Assembly: GCA_947631405.1 (NCBI GenBank)
Contig: CANRLC010000002.1
Span: 52,083 to 116,082, forward strand
Direction of reading: 5' to 3'
Source: an uncultured Clostridia bacterium
GTDB lineage: Bacteria; Bacillota; Clostridia; Christensenellales; Aristaeellaceae
Length of the DNA stretch: 64,000 nt
Shown: positions 49,732-59,885 of the stretch, in pieces
Position numbering within the stretch: position 1 is the stretch's first letter
How the letters are laid out: each line of letters opens with the position of its first letter
Program-made: the position numbers and the translations under genes
The notes under the pieces: generated by a model
Told to the model about the DNA's origin: nothing
Database searches by the model: none
Seen by the model: the letters and a program-made list of their open reading frames with translations, nothing else

Positions 49732-49762
49732 AACAGATAGCCATAAGGAGGTGTTCGCGAAA

Positions 49763-50302
49763 ATGAGCGAAAACGAAAACTTGGAGCTGAATAAGGATCA
49801 GGAAAGCGGCCAGATCACATATGCCAACGAGGTCATCGCCACCATCGTGAGCGTGGCGACGACGGAGGTGCAGGGCATCTCCGGTATCGCGGGTGCAGGC
49901 CCGATCAGCGGCATCCTCGGCAAGGGCAAGTCCCCGCGCGGCGTCAAGGTCGAGATGGTCGGCGGCAACGTGCGCGTGGACATCAACGTCACCGTCGATT
50001 ACGGCATGCCCATCCAGAAGGTGGGCCGCAACGCGCAGGAGAACGTGCGCAAGTCCATCGAGACGATGACCGGCCTGCACGTCGAGAAGGTCGATCTGCA
50101 TGTGGTGGGCGTCAGCTTTGAAAAGGAAAATCAGGAGCTGCAGCAGGGCCAGAAGCTCGCGATGAGCCTGGAGGAGCCGGAGCACGACGCCGCCGCGGAG
50201 GAGCCGCAGTACCCCGTGGAGTACGACGTGGACGCGCCGCAGGCCGAGGCGGACGAGCCGGAGGCGGACGAGGCGCAGGGCGAGGAGCCGGAGCAGGAAT
50301 AA
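49763..50302 (+). CDS. Asp23/Gls24 family envelope stress protein
   Basis: ITYANEVIATIVSVATTEVQGISGIAG, VRVDINVTVDYGMPIQKVGRNAQENVRKSIETMTGLHVEKVDLHVVGV. Confidence 0.95.
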   Translation: MSENENLELNKDQESGQITYANEVIATIVSVATTEVQGISGIAGAGPISGILGKGKSPRGVKVEMVGGNVRVDINVTVDYGMPIQKVGRNAQENVRKSIETMTGLHVEKVDLHVVGVSFEKENQELQQGQKLAMSLEEPEHDAAAEEPQYPVEYDVDAPQAEADEPEADEAQGEEPEQE

Positions 50303-50450
50303 GCCGCCGGAAGCGGCGGCTTCACCCTGAGCCTTTTCCCCCGGCGGGGAAAAGACGCCCCTGTTCTTTTAGTGGTTGATTGGTTATTGAATCGGATCAA
50401 AACGGACTTCGATGCTTTTCGTCAAGCTGAGCCGCTGGAAGCGGCGGTTG
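50301..50450. repeat. Locus C: duplicated terminator-like hairpins flanking a CTTTTCCCC/GGGGAAAAG hairpin
   Basis: AAGCCGCCGGAAGCGGCGGCTT (50301) and AGCCGCTGGAAGCGGCGGTT (50430); CTTTTCCCC-CGGC-GGGGAAAAG (50333-50354). Confidence 0.8.
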
Positions 50451-50481
50451 ACCGATGGATCAAAAGCAAGGGGGAATACAT

Positions 50482-51330
50482 GTGAAACATCCCGTGAGAG
50501 ACAGGCTGCTCATCCTGCTCATGGCGCTCGTGATGCTGCTCGGCGCCGCAGGCTTTGCGGGCCTCGCGTCCGGCACGCTGAACCTCGCCGCGCAGGAGGC
50601 GGGCTTTTCCGGCGGCATGCTCAATCTGCCGCTCGTTCAGCATCTGACCAGCTGGGCCGAGGGGAGCATGTCGTGGCCGATGCGCGCGGCGCTGATCGTC
50701 GCCGCCGTGGTGCTGCTGGCGCTGTGCGTGCTGCTCATCGGCGTGCTGCTGCCCAGCCGCCGCAAGCGCTCGAGCAACTACGCCGTGCAGCATAACGAGA
50801 ACGGCATGGTGCGCATCTCGCTCAAGGCCATTGACGCCCTCGTGCAGAAGTGCCTCAATCAGCACGCCGAACTCAAGGTCGTCACCTCGTCCCTGTACAG
50901 CGACGAGGAGAGCGTGCGCGTGGACGTACACATCACGCTGCAATCGGACATCAGCATGCCGCTGGCGATCTCCGCGCTGCAAAAGCAGATCAAGAAGTAT
51001 CTGGAGGCCTGCTCCGGCGTCTCGGTGAAGGAGGTGCGCGTGTTCGTGGACGGCACGACGCCCGCCACCGAGGAGACGGCGCGCTCGCCCTACGCGATCC
51101 CGGCGACGCTTCTGGGGCTGGAGCCGGACGCGCTGCCCAGCGGCGCGCAGCAGGCGGAACAGGGCGAGCAGGACATGCCCGCCGAAGCGCCCGCGCCGCA
51201 GATCGCTTTCACGCAGAGCGAACCGGAGGCGGCGAACGACGAGACTGCCGAGCCTCAGAAGACTGACGAGGCGTTCGAGCCTGACGGCGAAACCGCGGCG
51301 GACGGCGCGGACAAGGAGGAGTGGGCATGA
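50482..51330 (+). CDS. amaP: Alkaline shock response membrane anchor protein AmaP (GTG start)
   Basis: Two TM segments plus Asp23-like domain; next to asp23 and DUF2273. Confidence 0.85.
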   Translation: MKHPVRDRLLILLMALVMLLGAAGFAGLASGTLNLAAQEAGFSGGMLNLPLVQHLTSWAEGSMSWPMRAALIVAAVVLLALCVLLIGVLLPSRRKRSSNYAVQHNENGMVRISLKAIDALVQKCLNQHAELKVVTSSLYSDEESVRVDVHITLQSDISMPLAISALQKQIKKYLEACSGVSVKEVRVFVDGTTPATEETARSPYAIPATLLGLEPDALPSGAQQAEQGEQDMPAEAPAPQIAFTQSEPEAANDETAEPQKTDEAFEPDGETAADGADKEEWA

Positions 51331-51569
51331 CGGATTTGCGCGGCTTCATCTCCCAGATGTTTACGCCCGGCACCGCGCCCTGCACGATCTTCGGCATCGC
51401 GGTCGGCCTGATCTTCGCGGTGCTGTGCCTGACGATCGGCGTGGTCAAGGCGCTGGTGATCGGCCTGTTCTGTCTGGCGGGCGCGTTCATCGGCGGCGTG
51501 AAGGATAAAAAGGCGTTCCTGCGGGGCGTCGTCTCCTTCTTCAGCCGCGACGAGGATCGCTACGAATAA
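51327..51569 (+). CDS. DUF2273 family small membrane protein
   Basis: TIFGIAVGLIFAVLCLTIGVVKALVIGLFCLAGAFIGGVKDKK; AmaP-DUF2273 neighbourhood. Confidence 0.88.
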   Translation: MTDLRGFISQMFTPGTAPCTIFGIAVGLIFAVLCLTIGVVKALVIGLFCLAGAFIGGVKDKKAFLRGVVSFFSRDEDRYE

Positions 51570-51593: not shown

Positions 51594-51998
51594 ATGACAC
51601 GGCCTTTAGCGCGCGAGGCTGCGATGCAGCTCGTGTTTGAACAGCTCTTCGGCGGCGAGGGCGCGCCGGAGACGCTCGTGGAACTGACCGATTACAAGCC
51701 CGAGGAGGAAGACCGCCTCTACATCGAGTCGGTCGCCGGGGGCGTGCGCGAGCATGCGCGGGAGATCGACGAGACGATCGCCCCGTGCCTGCGCGGATGG
51801 ACGCTCGACCGCCTCTCCCGCGTCGATCTGGCGATCCTGCGCCTGTCCGTATACGAGATGCGCTACGCGGGCCTCGCGGCGGGCGTGTCCATCACCGAGG
51901 CGCTGCGCCTTGCGCGCAAATTCTCGGCGGAGGAGTCCTGCCCGTTCATCAACGGGGTGCTGGGCACGATCAGCCGCGCGCAGGCGGCGCAGGCATGA
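51594..51998 (+). CDS. nusB: Transcription antitermination factor NusB
   Basis: MTRPLAREAAMQLVFEQLF...LDRLSRVDLAILRLSVYEMRY...EALRLARKFSAEESCPFINGVLGTI. Confidence 0.94.
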   Translation: MTRPLAREAAMQLVFEQLFGGEGAPETLVELTDYKPEEEDRLYIESVAGGVREHAREIDETIAPCLRGWTLDRLSRVDLAILRLSVYEMRYAGLAAGVSITEALRLARKFSAEESCPFINGVLGTISRAQAAQA

Positions 51999-52972
51999 GG
52001 GCCGTCCTCGGGCTGGACACGAGCTGCTACACCACCTCGGCGGCGCTCGTCGAGGCGGAGAGCGGGGCGGTGTTGTCCTCCTCGCGCAGGCTGCTTTCGG
52101 TTGACGCCGGGGAGCGCGGCCTGCGCCAGTCGGACGGGCTGTTTCAGCATGTGAAGCGCCTGCCCGAGCGCGTGGAGGAGGCGCTGCGCGCCGCGCCGCA
52201 GGCGGAGATCGTCGCGGTCAGCGCGAGCGTTCGCCCGCGCCCGGCACAGGATTCGTACATGCCCGTCTTCAGGGCGGGCGAGAGTTTGGCGCGCGCAGCG
52301 GCGGCATTGTTGCGCGCGCCGTTTTTTCCCGTCAGCCATCAGGAGGGGCACGTTCGCGCGGCGACGCTGGATTCCGGCATCGACCTTGCGCGAGCGTTTC
52401 TGGCGCTGCATCTCTCCGGCGGCACGACGGAGGTGCTGCTCTGCCGCGGCGGCGCGCTGACGCTCTTGGGCGGCACGCTCGACTTGCACGCGGGCCAGCT
52501 GATCGACCGCGTCGGCGTGGCGCTGGGGCTGCCGTTCCCCGCAGGGCCGGAATTGGAGCGTCTGGCGCTGCGGGGAAACGCGCGCGGGCGCATCGGCGCG
52601 TCGGTCAGGGAAATAAGCTGCAACCTCGCCGGCGCGGAAAACAAGGCGCGGAGCTGGATAGAGACGCGCGAGCTGCCGCCGGAGGACGTCGCCGCGGAGA
52701 TCTTCGATCTGATCGCGCGCACGGTGCTGCGCCTGATCGCCGCGGCGTGTGCGCAGACGGGCTGCGATCAGGCGCTGCTGGCGGGCGGCGTGGCGTCCTC
52801 GGCGCTGCTGCGCGAGATGCTTTTGCGGCGCGCGCGCAAACAGGGATTGCCCTGCGCGCTGCATTTTGCCCGGCCCGAGCTGTCGGGGGATAACGCGGTC
52901 GGCGTGGCGCTGCTGGGCGCGGACGCGCTGCGCGCAAAGGAAAGGGAGAGCGAGACATGTCAGCGATCATGA
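51995..52972 (+). CDS. Kae1/TsaD-like paralogue (M22 glycoprotease family)
   Basis: [58 protein letters not shown]; differs from canonical TsaD. Confidence 0.85.
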
Positions 52973-53802
52973 TCGACGGAAAGCGCGTCGCCGCCGAAAC
53001 GCGCGCGCGCGCGGCGGAGGAGGCGGCGCAGCTGATCCGTCGGGGCGTGACGCCGCATCTGGCGGTGGTGCTGGCGGGCGACAACCCCGCCAGCCAGACG
53101 TATGTGCGCAACAAGGAGCGCGCCTGCCATGAGGCGGGGTTCCGCTCCACGATCCTGCGCCTGCCCGCCGACTGCACGCAGGCGGAGCTGGAGGAGGCCG
53201 TGCTGCGGCTGAACGCGGACGCGTCCGTACACGGCATCCTCGTGCAGCTGCCCTTGCCCGCGGGACTGGACGCCGCGCGCGTGCTGGCGCTCATCGACCC
53301 GGACAAGGACGTGGACGGCTTCCACGCGGTCAACGCGGGCAGGCTGGCGACCGGGCAGCCGGGCTTCGTGCCCTGCACGCCGCTGGGCGTGATCGCGCTG
53401 CTGGACGCCTATCAGATCCCCATCGCGGGCAGCCGCGCCGTGGTGATCGGCCGCAGCAACATCGTCGGCAAGCCGATGGCGCGATTGCTGCTCGCGCGCG
53501 ACGCGACGGTGACGATGTGCCACTCCGGCACGCGCGATCTGGCGAGCGTAACGCGCGAGGCGGACATCCTGATCGCCGCCGTCGGCCGGCCCGGCTTCGT
53601 GACACCGGAGATGGTGAAGCCCGGCGCGGCGGTGATCGACGTGGGCATCAGCCGCACGGAAAGCGGCCTCGCGGGCGACGTGGCCCCGCAGGTCGCGCAG
53701 GTCGCGGGCTATTTGACCCCGGTGCCCGGCGGCGTCGGGCCGATGACCGTGGCCATGCTGCTGCACAACACCCTGCAGGCCGCGCGGCGTCTGGCGCTAT
53801 GA
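52957..53802 (+). CDS. folD: Bifunctional methylenetetrahydrofolate dehydrogenase/cyclohydrolase
   Basis: [72 protein letters not shown]. Confidence 0.96.
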
Positions 53803-55019
53803 GCGCGCTCACGCTGAGCGTCTCCCAGCTCAACGAGTATGTGCGCAGGCTCCTCCAGCTCGACCCGACGCTGGGCGATCTCGTGCTGACGGGGGAGATC
53901 AGCAACCTGAAGTGGCATCAGTCCGGCACGCTGTTCTTCCGGATGAAGGACGAGCAGGCCGCGATCTCCTGCGTGATGCTCGCGCAGGACGCGGCGTGCC
54001 TGCGCGCGGAGCCGTTTGAGGGCATGCGCGCGCGGGTGAGCGGAGGCGTCGGCCTGTACGCGCGCGGCGGGCAGTATCAGTTCTACGCGCGCGACATTCG
54101 CGCAGACGGCGTCGGCGTGCTCTACGAGCGGCTGACGCGCCTTCGCGAGGCGCTCTCGCGCGAGGGGCTGTTCGATCCGGAGCGCAAGCGGCCCCTGACG
54201 CGCGTGCCGCGCACGGTGGGCGTCGTCACCTCGCCGACGGGGGCGGTGCTCCACGACATATTGAATGTTTCGCTGCGGCGCGATCCAAAGACGCGGCTGC
54301 TGCTCTGCCCGGCGCGGGTACAGGGCGCGGGCGCGGCGCAGGAGATCGTCCGCGCGCTGCATACCTTGGAGGCCGTGCCGGAGGTGGACGTCATCCTCCT
54401 CGCGCGCGGCGGCGGCTCGATGGAAGACCTGTGGACGTTTAACGAGGAGGAGGTCGTGCGCGCGGTCGCCGTGTGCAAAAAGCCCGTCGTCAGCGCGGTC
54501 GGCCACGAGACGGACGTGACGCTGTGCGACCTCGCCGCGGACTTGCGCGCGCCGACGCCCTCGGCCGCGGCGGAGTGTACCGTGCCCCTGCGCGCGGAGC
54601 TTGAGGACGAGCTGCGCGCGGCCCGGCGGGCGCTCTGCGACGCGCTGCGCGCGCGGCTTCAGGCGGAGCGCTCGGCGCTGTCCGCGCTGCGGCTGCGCAT
54701 GGCGGCGCTCTCGCCTGCGCGGCGGCTCGCCCTCGAGCGGGAAAGGCTTGCTCGCGCGCGCGAACGGCTGCGCGCGGCGGCGCAGGGCAGGCTGCAAAGG
54801 GAAGAGGCGCGCCTGCGCGCATCCCGTCAGGCGCTCGCGATGCTCAGCCCCTACGGCGTGCTCGCGCGCGGCTACGCCATCGTGCTGCGCGAGGGACGCG
54901 CGGTGCCCTCCAGCGCCGCGCTGCGCGCCGGGGACGGCGTGACGCTGCGCTTTTCGGACGGCGAAGCGCACGCGCTTGTGGAGGAGACCAAGCCGCACGA
55001 AGGGGAGGAACGCACATGA
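53799..55019 (+). CDS. xseA: Exodeoxyribonuclease VII large subunit
   Basis: [14 protein letters not shown]...[22 protein letters not shown]...[23 protein letters not shown]. Confidence 0.95.
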
Positions 55020-55246
55020 CCGCGAAGAAGAAGGCCCGCCGCACCTACGAAGAGGGCGTGCGGGCGCTGGAAGAGATGATCGGCAAGCTGGAGGACGGCG
55101 CGCTGCCGCTCGACGAGGCGATCGCCGCCTACGAGGCGGGCGTCGCGTTGGCGGACGAGCTGGACGCCGAGCTGCGCGAGCACGGCAGGCGCATCGAGCA
55201 GATCGACCCGCAGACGGGCGAGGTGTCGCCCCTCGAGGAGGCGTGA
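55016..55246 (+). CDS. xseB: Exodeoxyribonuclease VII small subunit
   Basis: RTYEEGVRALEEMIGKLEDGALPLDEAIAAYEAGVALADEL. Confidence 0.95.
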   Translation: MTAKKKARRTYEEGVRALEEMIGKLEDGALPLDEAIAAYEAGVALADELDAELREHGRRIEQIDPQTGEVSPLEEA

Positions 55247-55248
55247 GC

Positions 55249-56160
55249 ATGGATTACGAGCGCGAGTACCGCCGCTACGTCGGCCTCGTCGAGGAGACGA
55301 TCGAGCGGCTCCTGCCGCAGACGCAGGAGGCGTGCCCGGCGGACGGAGGCATCCCCAAGCTGCTGTGCGAGAGCATGCGCTACAGCCTGTTGGCGGGCGG
55401 CAAGCGCGTGCGCCCGGTGCTGCTGCTCGCCGCGTGCGAGGCGCTGGGCGGCGCGCTCGAGGAGGCGCTCGTCCCCGCCGCGGCGCTGGAGATGATCCAC
55501 ACCTATTCGCTCATCCACGACGATCTGCCCGGCATGGACGACGACGACCTGCGCCGCGGCCGGCCGACGAACCATAAGGTTTATGGCGTGGGGCAGGCGA
55601 TTCTGGCCGGGGACGGCCTGCTCAACTTCGCCTACGAGCGCCTGCTGCAAAACGCGCTGGCATATCCCCAAAACCTCGCGGGGCATGTCCATGCGGCGGA
55701 GGCGATCGCCACGCGCGCGGGCGTGACGGGCATGATCGCCGGGCAATGCCTCGACCTGCTCGCCGAGCGCATGGAGCCGGATGAAAGCCTGCTTCGCTAT
55801 ATCCACGCGCACAAGACCGCCGACCTGCTCACCGCGCCGCTGCTGGCGGCGGCGCACATCGCGGGCGCGGGCGAGGCGGCCTTCGCCGCGTTGACGGAGT
55901 TCGGCGCGTGCGTCGGCCTCGCCTTCCAGATCGACGACGACCTGCTGGACGTACAGGGCGACGCCGCGCTCATGGGCAAGCAGACCGGGATGGACGCGCA
56001 GCGGGGCAAGATGACGTGGCCGTCGCTCGTGGGCGTGGAGGAAGCGCGCGCGTCTTCGTCAAGGCTCTGGGATCGCGCGATCGCGTCGCTCTCGCCTTTG
56101 GGCGAGCGGGCGTGGTTCCTCACGGAATTCGCGCAGAAGCTGCGCGTGCGCACGCACTGA
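55249..56160 (+). CDS. ispA: Polyprenyl synthetase (farnesyl diphosphate synthase)
   Basis: GGKRVRPVLLLAACEALGG, YSLIHDDLPGMDDDDLRRGRPTNHKVYG, FQIDDDLLDVQGD. Confidence 0.95.
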   Translation: MDYEREYRRYVGLVEETIERLLPQTQEACPADGGIPKLLCESMRYSLLAGGKRVRPVLLLAACEALGGALEEALVPAAALEMIHTYSLIHDDLPGMDDDDLRRGRPTNHKVYGVGQAILAGDGLLNFAYERLLQNALAYPQNLAGHVHAAEAIATRAGVTGMIAGQCLDLLAERMEPDESLLRYIHAHKTADLLTAPLLAAAHIAGAGEAAFAALTEFGACVGLAFQIDDDLLDVQGDAALMGKQTGMDAQRGKMTWPSLVGVEEARASSSRLWDRAIASLSPLGERAWFLTEFAQKLRVRTH

Positions 56161-56193: not shown

Positions 56194-56640
56194 ATGGACG
56201 TCATCAGGCAGATCGCGGGCAACCGCGCCATCGCCGCCGCCGTGATCGCGTGGGCGGTCGCGCAGGCGGTCAAGGTGCTGCTAACGCTGGCGATCAGCAA
56301 GCGCTTCGACAGCTCGCGCGTGCTCGGCTCCGGCGGCATGCCCAGCTCCCATTCCTCGACGGTCTGCGCGCTGGTGACCGTGATCGGTCTGCAGGAGGGG
56401 CTGTCTTCGCCGATCTTCGCGCTGGCGTTCTGCTTGGCCGGGGTCGTCATGTACGACGCGGCGGGCGTGCGCCGCTCCACCGGGCGAAACGCCGCCGTCA
56501 TCAACCGCCTGATCGAGGACTTGGGCAAGGACGGCTTCACCTTCACCGAGGAGCGCTTAAAGGAGCTGGTCGGCCACACGCCCATTCAGGTGTTGGCCGG
56601 GGCGCTGCTTGGCATTCTCATCGGCACGCTGCTCGCCTGA
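56194..56640 (+). CDS. Divergent PAP2 family protein (DUF212/YuiD-like)
   Basis: SGGMPSSHSSTVCALVTVIGLQEGLSSPIFALAFCLAGVVMYDAAGVRRSTGRNAAVIN. Confidence 0.92.
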   Translation: MDVIRQIAGNRAIAAAVIAWAVAQAVKVLLTLAISKRFDSSRVLGSGGMPSSHSSTVCALVTVIGLQEGLSSPIFALAFCLAGVVMYDAAGVRRSTGRNAAVINRLIEDLGKDGFTFTEERLKELVGHTPIQVLAGALLGILIGTLLA

Positions 56641-56660
56641 CGCGCGCCTCTTGACAGGCA

Positions 56661-56669
56661 TGGTATAAT
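56661..56669 (+). promoter_or_regulatory. Extended -10 promoter for the OLE-like RNA
   Basis: TGGTATAAT (perfect TGnTATAAT) immediately upstream of the noncoding region. Confidence 0.6.
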
Positions 56670-56675
56670 GGCTCT

Positions 56676-57296
56676 AGGTGGTGCAGTATTCTAGTCAGCG
56701 AAGTTCCATCTGAAGGCGGGGCTAAAAATCCGTTAAAGGGCATATCGATGAAGTTTCTGGTGCTGGCTGCTGACGCCCAGTCGGGGGTTGGCGCTGGAAG
56801 TAAGAATTATGGGCGCCCGTCAATGGCATGGCGGGGACGACCCATCTTTCGTGGAGGCATGACGCCTTGCGCGTCATGAAAACCTGCATGGCGGTCCCAA
56901 GCTGCCTGCAGCGTAGCCTGCCTTGAGCGGTTGTGGTGGATCGCGGAACAACGCGCGGCGACCAAAGGCTCACGGAAGCCGCGGCGATCGCCGGGTGAAA
57001 CCACGGCTGCAAAAGAGGCTAGGATGGTTCCAAGCTGCCGAGGAAAGCTCCTAGACTGTCGAATGGATATGGCAGAGATTACAGTGTGGTCTGAGTGGTA
57101 ATTCGGTCCCGCGCGCGGAGACGGCGCGGCGTTCGCTTTCAAGGGAAACCGCTTCTATGGCGACAGGAAGTAGCGGGCGGGGAAATCCTACCGGACCTAT
57201 GCCGCAAGGTTTATTTGCCGTATCACCACCTTTCTTGATCTTGTTGCGCGCGCCCCTGCGGCGCGGCGTTCGCCCACGCATCCGTGGGCTTTTTTG
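56676..57296 (+). ncRNA. ole: OLE (ornate large extremophilic) RNA candidate
   Basis: ~620 nt non-coding interval with its own promoter and terminator, many local inverted repeats, purine-rich conserved-looking segments (AAGTTCCATCTGAAGGCGGGGCTAAAAATCCGTTAAAGGGC); lies between ispA/PAP2 and a small membrane protein next to dxs-tlyA-nadK-argR-recN. Confidence 0.85.
57271..57296 (+). terminator. Rho-independent terminator at 3' end of the OLE-like RNA
   Basis: GCCCACG CATC CGTGGGC TTTTTT. Confidence 0.85.
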
Positions 57297-57312: not shown

Positions 57313-57942
57313 GTGAGGGAAAACGCATTGAGCAAAAAGGAAAGGGACAGGCAGGATCATCAGCGCTGGGTGCTGACGGTGGTCTTGCTGTCCTTCGCGC
57401 TATCGGTGGCGATGTCGCTGCTGACGAGCCTGTTCGTCGAGTCCGCCGGGCTGCTCGTGGCGCTGCTGACCTTGATCGTGCTGGTGATGATCGGCATCGT
57501 CACCGACGCCGTCGGCACCGCCGTCACCTCCGCCAGCGAGCAGCCGTTCATCGCGATGGCCTCCAAGCGCATCCCCGGCGCGCGGCAGGCGCTGCGGCTG
57601 GTGCGCCGGGCGGAGCGGGTCTCCAGCGTGCTCAACGACGTCGTGGGCGACATCGTGGGCATCGTGGCCGGCTCGGCCGGCTCGGTGATCGCGGCGTATC
57701 TGGGCGCGGCGTTCGGCCTGCGCGTGATGTTCGCCTCGCTGATGACCACGGCGTTTACCTCCGCCTTCATGATCGGCGGCAAGGCCTACGGCAAGGGCAT
57801 CGCCATACGGCACAGCGAGAAGATCGTCCTCTTCGTGGGCCGGGCGATGGCGCCCTTCACGGGCGGGACGGGCGCGCCGAAGCGCGGCGCAGGAAAGCGC
57901 GCCCGCGGCGGCGAGGCGCCCCACAACAGACGCAATCCGTAG
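57313..57942 (+). CDS. OLE-associated protein A (OapA)-like membrane protein (start GTG 57313 or TTG 57328)
   Basis: ~205 aa, Lys/Arg-rich N-terminus (LSKKERDRQDHQR), several TM segments, IVTDAVGTAVTSASEQPF, basic C-terminus; directly downstream of the RNA. Confidence 0.78.
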   Translation: MRENALSKKERDRQDHQRWVLTVVLLSFALSVAMSLLTSLFVESAGLLVALLTLIVLVMIGIVTDAVGTAVTSASEQPFIAMASKRIPGARQALRLVRRAERVSSVLNDVVGDIVGIVAGSAGSVIAAYLGAAFGLRVMFASLMTTAFTSAFMIGGKAYGKGIAIRHSEKIVLFVGRAMAPFTGGTGAPKRGAGKRARGGEAPHNRRNP

Positions 57943-57953
57943 GGAGGAATACC

Positions 57954-59885
57954 ATGGCGATTCTCTCCGAGATACGCGGCCCGCAGGACGTCAAGCGCCT
58001 GACCTCCGAGGAATGCAAGGAGCTGGCGGTCGAGCTGCGGCAGACGATCATCGACACCGTCTCGCGGCAGGGCGGCCATCTGGCGTCCAACCTCGGCGAC
58101 GTGGAGTTGACCATCGCGCTGCACCGCGCGTTCGACAGCCCGACGGACAAGCTGATCTTCGACGTCGGCCACCAGATCTACGCGCACAAGCTGCTCACAG
58201 GGCGGCAGGAGCGCTTTGGCACGCTGCGCTCCTACGGCGGCATCAGCGGCTTTCCCTGCCGCGCGGAGAGCGAGCACGACCTGTTCGACACCGGGCACTC
58301 GTCCACGGCGATCTCGATGGCGCTGGGGCTGGCCCGCGCGCGCGATTTGCAGGGCGAAAACTATCACGTCGTGGCGGTCGTGGGCGACGGCGCGCTGACC
58401 GGCGGCATGTGCTACGAGGCGATGAACGACGCGGGCAACGGCAAAAACCGCCTGATCGTCGTGCTCAACGACAACGAGATGTCCATCGACCGCAACGTCG
58501 GCGCGCTGTCCAACTACTTTAAGCACCTGCGCGCCAGCGCGTCGTGGTACGGCGGCAAAAAGCGCGTCAAGCGGGGACTTGAGCGCATTCCGCTGGTGGG
58601 CAAGACGCTCGCGCGCTGGGCGGAGAGCGCCAAGAACATGGTCAAATCCGTGGTGACGGGCGGCGAGATGTTTGAGGCGCTGGGCTTTCGCTACCTCGGC
58701 CCGTTCGACGGACACGACATCGACGAGATGACGCACATCTTCGAGGAAGCCAAGCAGGTGGACGACATGCCGCTGCTCATCCATGTGGTGACGCAGAAGG
58801 GGCACGGCTACGATCTGGCCGAGCGCCAGCCGGAGAAGTTCCACGGCGTGGCGCCGTTTCGCGTGGAAAACGGGCTGCGCCGCGAGCAGTCCGGCAAGGA
58901 GAGCGCCGCGCACGCGGCGGGCAGCGCGCTGGTGGCGATGGCCGCGGAGGATAAGCGCGTCTGCGCGATCACCGCGGCGATGGCGGCCGGAACGGGCCTT
59001 GACGAGTTCGCGACGTATTACCCGGAGCGCTTCTTTGACGTGGGCATCGCCGAGCAGCATGCGGTCAGCATGGCGGCGGGGCTGGCCCGCGCCGGGATGC
59101 GCCCGTATTTCGCCGTGTACGCGACGTTCTTCCAGCGCGCTTACGATCAGATGATTCACGACGTCTGCCTGCAAAACCTGCCCGTGTGCGTGCTCTCCGA
59201 TCACGCCGGGCTGGTCGGGGACGACGGCAAGACGCACCACGGCGTGCTGAGCGTGCCGATGCTGCTCTCCCTGCCGAACCTGACGCTGCTCGCCCCGCGC
59301 GACACGCAGGAGCTGCGCGCCGCCGTGCGCGCCTCGCTCGCCGTCGAGGGGCCGTGCGTCATCCAGTACCCGAAGGAGGGCATCGAGCCTTACGCGCAGG
59401 CGTTGGGCGGCGAGGGCTTTGCGGTGGGCCGCTGGCAGCGCCTTTTAGAGGGCGAGGAGCGCGTGCTGCTCGCCTACGGCCGCATGACGCAGCACGCGCT
59501 GCGCGCGGCGGAAATGATGCGCGAGCAGGGCGTCAAGGTCGGCGTGATCGACTGCTGCTCGCTGCGCCCGATGGACATGACCTGCCTGCGCAGGTTGATG
59601 GCGAAGCGGGCGAAGATCGTCACCGTCGAGGAGGGCGAGATGATCGGCGGCTTCGGCGCGGAGATCGCGCGCCAATGCGCGCTGCACGGCGCGCCGCCCC
59701 CGGTCGCGATGCTGGGCACGCCCAACCGCTTCATCGCGCACGGCTCGGTCGAATTGCTGCTGCGCGAGTGCGCGCTGATGCCCGACCAGATCGCGCGGCG
59801 CGCGATGGAGGCGTTCGGCGGGGAGACCGCGGCCAAGGGCGGAGCCGAAGCGCAGGCCAAACCGGAGGAGACGCATGAGCGATAA
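57954..59885 (+). CDS. dxs: 1-deoxy-D-xylulose-5-phosphate synthase
   Basis: GGHLASNLGDVELTIALHRAFDSPTDKLIFDVGHQIYAHKLLTGR, VVGDGALTGGMCYEAMNDAG, RFFDVGIAEQHAVSMAAGLA. Confidence 0.96.
   Translation: MAILSEIRGPQDVKRLTSEECKELAVELRQTIIDTVSRQGGHLASNLGDVELTIALHRAFDSPTDKLIFDVGHQIYAHKLLTGRQERFGTLRSYGGISGFPCRAESEHDLFDTGHSSTAISMALGLARARDLQGENYHVVAVVGDGALTGGMCYEAMNDAGNGKNRLIVVLNDNEMSIDRNVGALSNYFKHLRASASWYGGKKRVKRGLERIPLVGKTLARWAESAKNMVKSVVTGGEMFEALGFRYLGPFDGHDIDEMTHIFEEAKQVDDMPLLIHVVTQKGHGYDLAERQPEKFHGVAPFRVENGLRREQSGKESAAHAAGSALVAMAAEDKRVCAITAAMAAGTGLDEFATYYPERFFDVGIAEQHAVSMAAGLARAGMRPYFAVYATFFQRAYDQMIHDVCLQNLPVCVLSDHAGLVGDDGKTHHGVLSVPMLLSLPNLTLLAPRDTQELRAAVRASLAVEGPCVIQYPKEGIEPYAQALGGEGFAVGRWQRLLEGEERVLLAYGRMTQHALRAAEMMREQGVKVGVIDCCSLRPMDMTCLRRLMAKRAKIVTVEEGEMIGGFGAEIARQCALHGAPPPVAMLGTPNRFIAHGSVELLLRECALMPDQIARRAMEAFGGETAAKGGAEAQAKPEETHER

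Follow-up and report, generated by a model that had tools for sequence, protein, structure and literature searches.

We found that the interval 56661-57296 of the window, the 64-kb stretch of DNA analysed here, almost certainly carries an ole gene, which would have the function expected from published work on OLE RNA. The Rfam model of OLE RNA (RF01071) matched positions 56662-57245 of the plus strand with 469.2 bits (E 1.5e-134), and model positions 1-616, i.e. the full length, were all covered. The first-pass annotation had proposed OLE RNA from the position and size of the interval, and a cmsearch against the OLE gathering cut-off had been set beforehand as the refuting test; the score cleared that cut-off (50 bits) by more than 400 bits. 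No other Rfam match was found in the 64 kb at any Rfam cut-off. OLE is present in one copy in the genome of the host (2.28 Mb, 68 contigs), a member of Candidatus Ventricola, a genus known from animal guts, and in none of 14 control genomes. All conserved OLE sequence blocks are intact in the window copy. Membership of the OLE class is thus established at the sequence level, and the RNA is a fresh example of a known RNA, not a new kind.

The base composition of the interval differs from its surroundings, as had been noted earlier (57.6% GC versus 67.2% for the whole window), and no plausible plus-strand ORF was found in it, again in line with the annotation; the longest one inside encodes 56 aa. 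Open frames of 94-111 aa do exist on the minus strand and might suggest that the interval is protein-coding. Open antisense frames, however, are common at high GC. These frames overlie conserved OLE structure, and the changes over 19 homologues track RNA base pairs, while the indels fit the structure and not codons. The covariation described below has already refuted a coding role, the probability of which we regard as negligible.

For the covariation test, 145 base pairs of the Rfam model were mapped on the window sequence and followed through an alignment of 19 OLE genes. Paired combinations filled 89.1% of the cells, and 67 of the 145 pairs showed two-sided changes, compared with a mean of 37.2 after shuffling (none of 500 shuffles was as high) and with at most 32 when the partners were slid. 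The covariation score was 0.296, versus 0.155 on average for shuffles and ≤0.098 for slid partners. The secondary structure of OLE is, therefore, backed by strong covariation across the 19 genes. The folding energy of the single window sequence gave a weak signal (z -1.8), and covariation was used as structural evidence instead of minimum free energy. In addition, the 5′ GGUGGU (56676-56682) pairs with a 3′ ACCACC upstream of 57245 in 19 of 19 OLE genes, so that the ends of OLE are joined; a change on both sides (U-A to C-G) is seen once, as is a U-G pair. The structure line of the Rfam model leaves these positions unpaired.

Individual helices (P6, P7, P12.2 and P13) were numbered by the order of the stems in the Rfam model. 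The apical loops of P12.2 (GGAGAC, 57117-57122, plus strand) and P13 (GGCGAC, 57159-57164, plus strand), which belong to the OapB-binding region of OLE as described in PMC9723947, follow the patterns GGNNAC and GGNGAC, respectively, in 19 of 19 loci. P8, P9 and the P13 loop are all in place, and only P7 is clearly shortened, to the plus-strand hairpin CATGACGC-CTTGC-GCGTCATG at 56858-56878, where model positions are missing in the cmscan alignment. Every locus of the genus has such a short P7, and its helix shows compensatory changes. The 3′ strand of P6 reads CCCAUCUUUC in the window and CCCAUUUUUC in most congeners, and P6 of Ventricola OLE, at 56803-56853 in the window and in loci L004-L010, contains no CCUCC anti-Shine-Dalgarno mimic. 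Such a mimic in P6 is not class-defining for OLE. In the OLE of Halalkalibacterium halodurans it binds bS21 (PMC12054373). The absence of CCUCC, together with the short P7, suggests that some partner contacts may differ. Two positions within the P6 stem are also unpaired in Ventricola OLE.

The annotation had placed an extended -10 at the 5′ end and an intrinsic terminator, GCCCACG-CATC-CGTGGGC-TTTTTT, at the 3′ end, and both are there. The extended -10 TGGTATAAT (56661-56669, plus strand) consists of TATAAT at 56664-56669 with TG before it, and AGGUGGUG follows 7 nt after; TGN-TATAAT recurs in every one of the 14 loci of the genus, counting that of the window (congener loci are numbered L051-L064). 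The predicted terminator (57272-57295, plus strand) has the same stem in all 14 loci, with the consensus CCCACG...CGTGGG-T5/6. A single site of this kind in 3 kb of GC-rich DNA would be expected by chance (shuffle mean 1.9), but chance leaves the conservation in 14 of 14 loci unexplained. Taking these ends, and the usual spacing of sigma-70 promoters, the predicted primary transcript would run from about 56676 to 57295 on the plus strand, some 620 nt. Since every locus keeps both the extended -10 and the terminator, OLE is probably made as a separate transcript of ~620 nt.

The remainder of the promoter is less regular. The -35 position, 17 nt from the -10, is occupied by CGCGCG in the window species, i.e. 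there is no -35, versus TTG (TTGC or TTGA) in the other 13 of the 14 loci. The spacer contains CTTGACA (56650-56656, plus strand), 7 nt before the -10 and found in 13 of 14 loci. TTGACA at 56651 was rejected as a -35 element because, at only 7 nt from the -10, it is too close; elsewhere in the host genome TTGACA...TATAAT pairs are, with few exceptions, 16-18 nt apart. A second TTGACA-N7-TATAAT, on contig C29, overlies the reverse complement of the ribosome-binding site that serves a gene for an ABC substrate-binding protein, and is thus probably a chance occurrence.

With oapA and dxs just downstream and an intrinsic terminator at its 3′ end, OLE could also be read as a mere cis-acting leader, serving oapA-dxs as a riboswitch or attenuator, instead of a trans-acting RNA. 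We consider such a leader very unlikely. The RNA is full-length OLE, and experiments have shown that RNAs of this class work as membrane RNPs (PMC9723947, PMC12265935). Furthermore, the last conserved OLE pairs join the 5′ end of the molecule to its 3′ end and none of them overlaps the terminator stem, so that no terminator/antiterminator switch is visible.

The genes around the interval also fit OLE RNA. OLE and oapA are located inside the classic nusB-folD-xseAB-ispA...dxs-argR-recN cluster, with xseA and xseB for exonuclease VII (53799-55246; TIGR00237, TIGR01280), ispA for farnesyl diphosphate synthase (55249-56160; NF045485, 317.9 bits) and a DUF212 gene (56194-56640; PF02681, 166 bits) upstream, and dxs for 1-deoxyxylulose-5-phosphate synthase (57954-59885; TIGR00204, 685 bits) downstream, all on the plus strand. 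The gene order given previously holds, except that the gene called PAP2 is a divergent PAP2-family member, DUF212, and that a TsaD-like gene (Kae1 family, 51995-52969) stands between nusB and folD. Upstream of the TsaD-like gene is a trio of Asp23, Asp23-like and DUF2273 genes (49760-51566).

The gene directly downstream, oapA (57328-57942, plus strand), encodes a membrane protein of 204 aa with a TTG start, and was assigned by its position, a CNNM/DUF21 match, orthologues and hydrophobic segments. The CNNM/DUF21 match is weak (27.3 bits, slightly below the Pfam cut-off); the protein, however, is 35-79% identical to its counterparts at 20 other named loci, which bears out the proposal that this is the membrane-protein partner OapA. 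In nine of these 20 loci OLE was confirmed directly upstream of oapA, and a tenth has the 3′ part of OLE, the rest being cut by the contig end. A KOW-domain search for OapB found L24 alone; OapB (100 aa) was located by its position between map and infA and by its match to PDB 7k9b, 'OLE-associated protein B' (1.4e-9). OapC, an L7Ae-type protein, sits before rpsL and matches YbxF 3v7e (7e-15). OapB and OapC are common in OLE genomes, though not universal. With bS21 also encoded in the host genome, the known OLE particle is complete as judged from the gene content.

We compared the occurrence of OLE and of MpfA, the CNNM-CBS-CorC type of Mg2+ exporter, in the host family. Under strict filters and among draft genomes, OLE was found in 10 of 201 genomes, representing 3 of 50 genera. 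A strong CNNM match of the MpfA type (E below 1e-10) was present in 3 of the 10 OLE genomes versus 180 of the 191 OLE-less ones (Fisher p 1.4e-6, uncorrected for kinship). The CNNM-CBS-CorC layout was confirmed for two CNNMs in OLE-minus congeners and for one in an OLE carrier. Within the genus there are species with OLE only, species with both systems (G136 and G152) and species with MpfA only, in which the locus is closed up: it reads ispA-DUF212-dxs in G117 (L045) and G198 (L046), and ispA-dxs in G097 (L047), lacking OLE and oapA in each case, and all three carry MpfA-type CNNM proteins. In a two-gene tree G117 falls within a clade of seven (support 87) whose other six members have OLE, for which loss of OLE in G117 is the simplest reading. 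Horizontal transfer as the source of the patchy distribution is not favoured, given this nesting of an OLE-minus species among carriers and the same ispA-DUF212-OLE-oapA-dxs placement in two genera. On a finer scale, the Ventricola pattern agrees with the anticorrelation of OLE and MpfA across genomes described in PMC11332333.

The loss of OLE in three congeners that have MpfA raises the question of whether the window copy is itself a decaying relic, in a lineage replacing OLE by MpfA. The window species has no -35, its P7 is short, and some pairs of the P9 region are broken (helix 11 is 59% paired). We regard decay as extremely improbable, however, because the OLE match scores 469 bits with every conserved block intact, the short P7 is common to the genus and carries compensatory changes, and oapA, oapB and oapC are intact. 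Moreover, there is no MpfA in the host genome to take over, the sole CNNM match there being OapA. It is possible, if on balance somewhat doubtful, that the genus is swapping OLE-OapA for the all-protein MpfA, and that CTTGACA is a regulator site tying OLE to stress.

For a functional ole gene, the mechanism we propose is drawn from published work on H. halodurans, one distant model species, and from cryo-EM, by which OLE dimers have been solved (PMC12286853, PMC12265935). By analogy, ole would be transcribed as a stable ~620-nt RNA that dimerises and that OapA, a half-size CNNM-type and probably ion-handling protein, would dock on the membrane, with OapB and OapC helping the RNA to fold. The particle would act as a stress-responsive membrane RNP that limits Mg2+ toxicity and aids survival in the cold, in alcohol and under poor carbon supply. 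As the exchange pattern suggests, OLE in the genus appears to do the job of MpfA in OLE-less relatives. OapA has the CNNM membrane domain as MpfA does, and the two systems tend toward mutual exclusion, but OapA lacks CBS and CorC domains and works with an RNA.

The window OLE resembles those of H. halodurans and Clostridium acetobutylicum in its length, conserved blocks, helices of both domains and GGNGAC OapB loops, in the presence of OapA, OapB and OapC, and in its place upstream of oapA in an isoprenoid/DNA-repair cluster. It differs in that P7 is a hairpin of 7-8 bp and P6 is without the CCUCC mimic known from H. halodurans, and in that Ventricola keeps a predicted terminator between OLE and oapA across the genus, whereas ole of H. 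halodurans reportedly lies inside a large operon while having a promoter of its own (PMC9723947). With OLE variants 1 (TANB77 clade) and 2 (RF39 clade) it shares a gut host and a shortened P7. According to PMC11332333, these clades shorten or lose P7-P9 and are largely without OapB and OapC, and variant 1 has P7, P8 and P9 shortened and has often lost the P13 OapB site. In contrast, the window OLE keeps P8 and P9 as well as the loops that bind OapB, and the host genome encodes OapB and OapC; having P8, P9 and the P13 loop, it falls outside variant 1.

OLE is among the largest conserved bacterial RNAs of unknown biochemical function, and this locus adds one confirmed OLE system, with the full known partner set, in animal-gut Clostridia. 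The new detail lies in the patchy occurrence of OLE in the family, the MpfA-type congeners, the spacer CTTGACA, the lost -35 and the changes in P6 and P7. A genus that has OLE-only, MpfA-only and doubly equipped species offers natural comparisons by which the proposed equivalence of OLE to MpfA can be examined, and, if the exchange is true, comparison of close host relatives could reveal the function of OLE.

The earlier annotation had seen in this genome a gut- or host-type spore-former that would extend the ecological range of OLE. The extension is the weak point of that reading: a scan of GTDB R214 found OLE in 2,822 Bacillota genomes, uncultured gut clades included (PMC11332333), so that there is little novelty in the ecological claim. 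Ventricola genomes were very likely among those scanned; our literature search found no paper naming Ventricola together with OLE. The description of the host itself fares better. Its nearest named relatives are Candidatus Ventricola, described from chicken gut, along with unnamed Clostridia MAGs, and several of these relatives are labelled as coming from the rectum of water deer and goat and the caecum of water buffalo. The C-terminal domain of Spo0A also occurs in two proteins of the host genome (contigs C21:15967 and C68:346), which supports the view of it as a spore-former.
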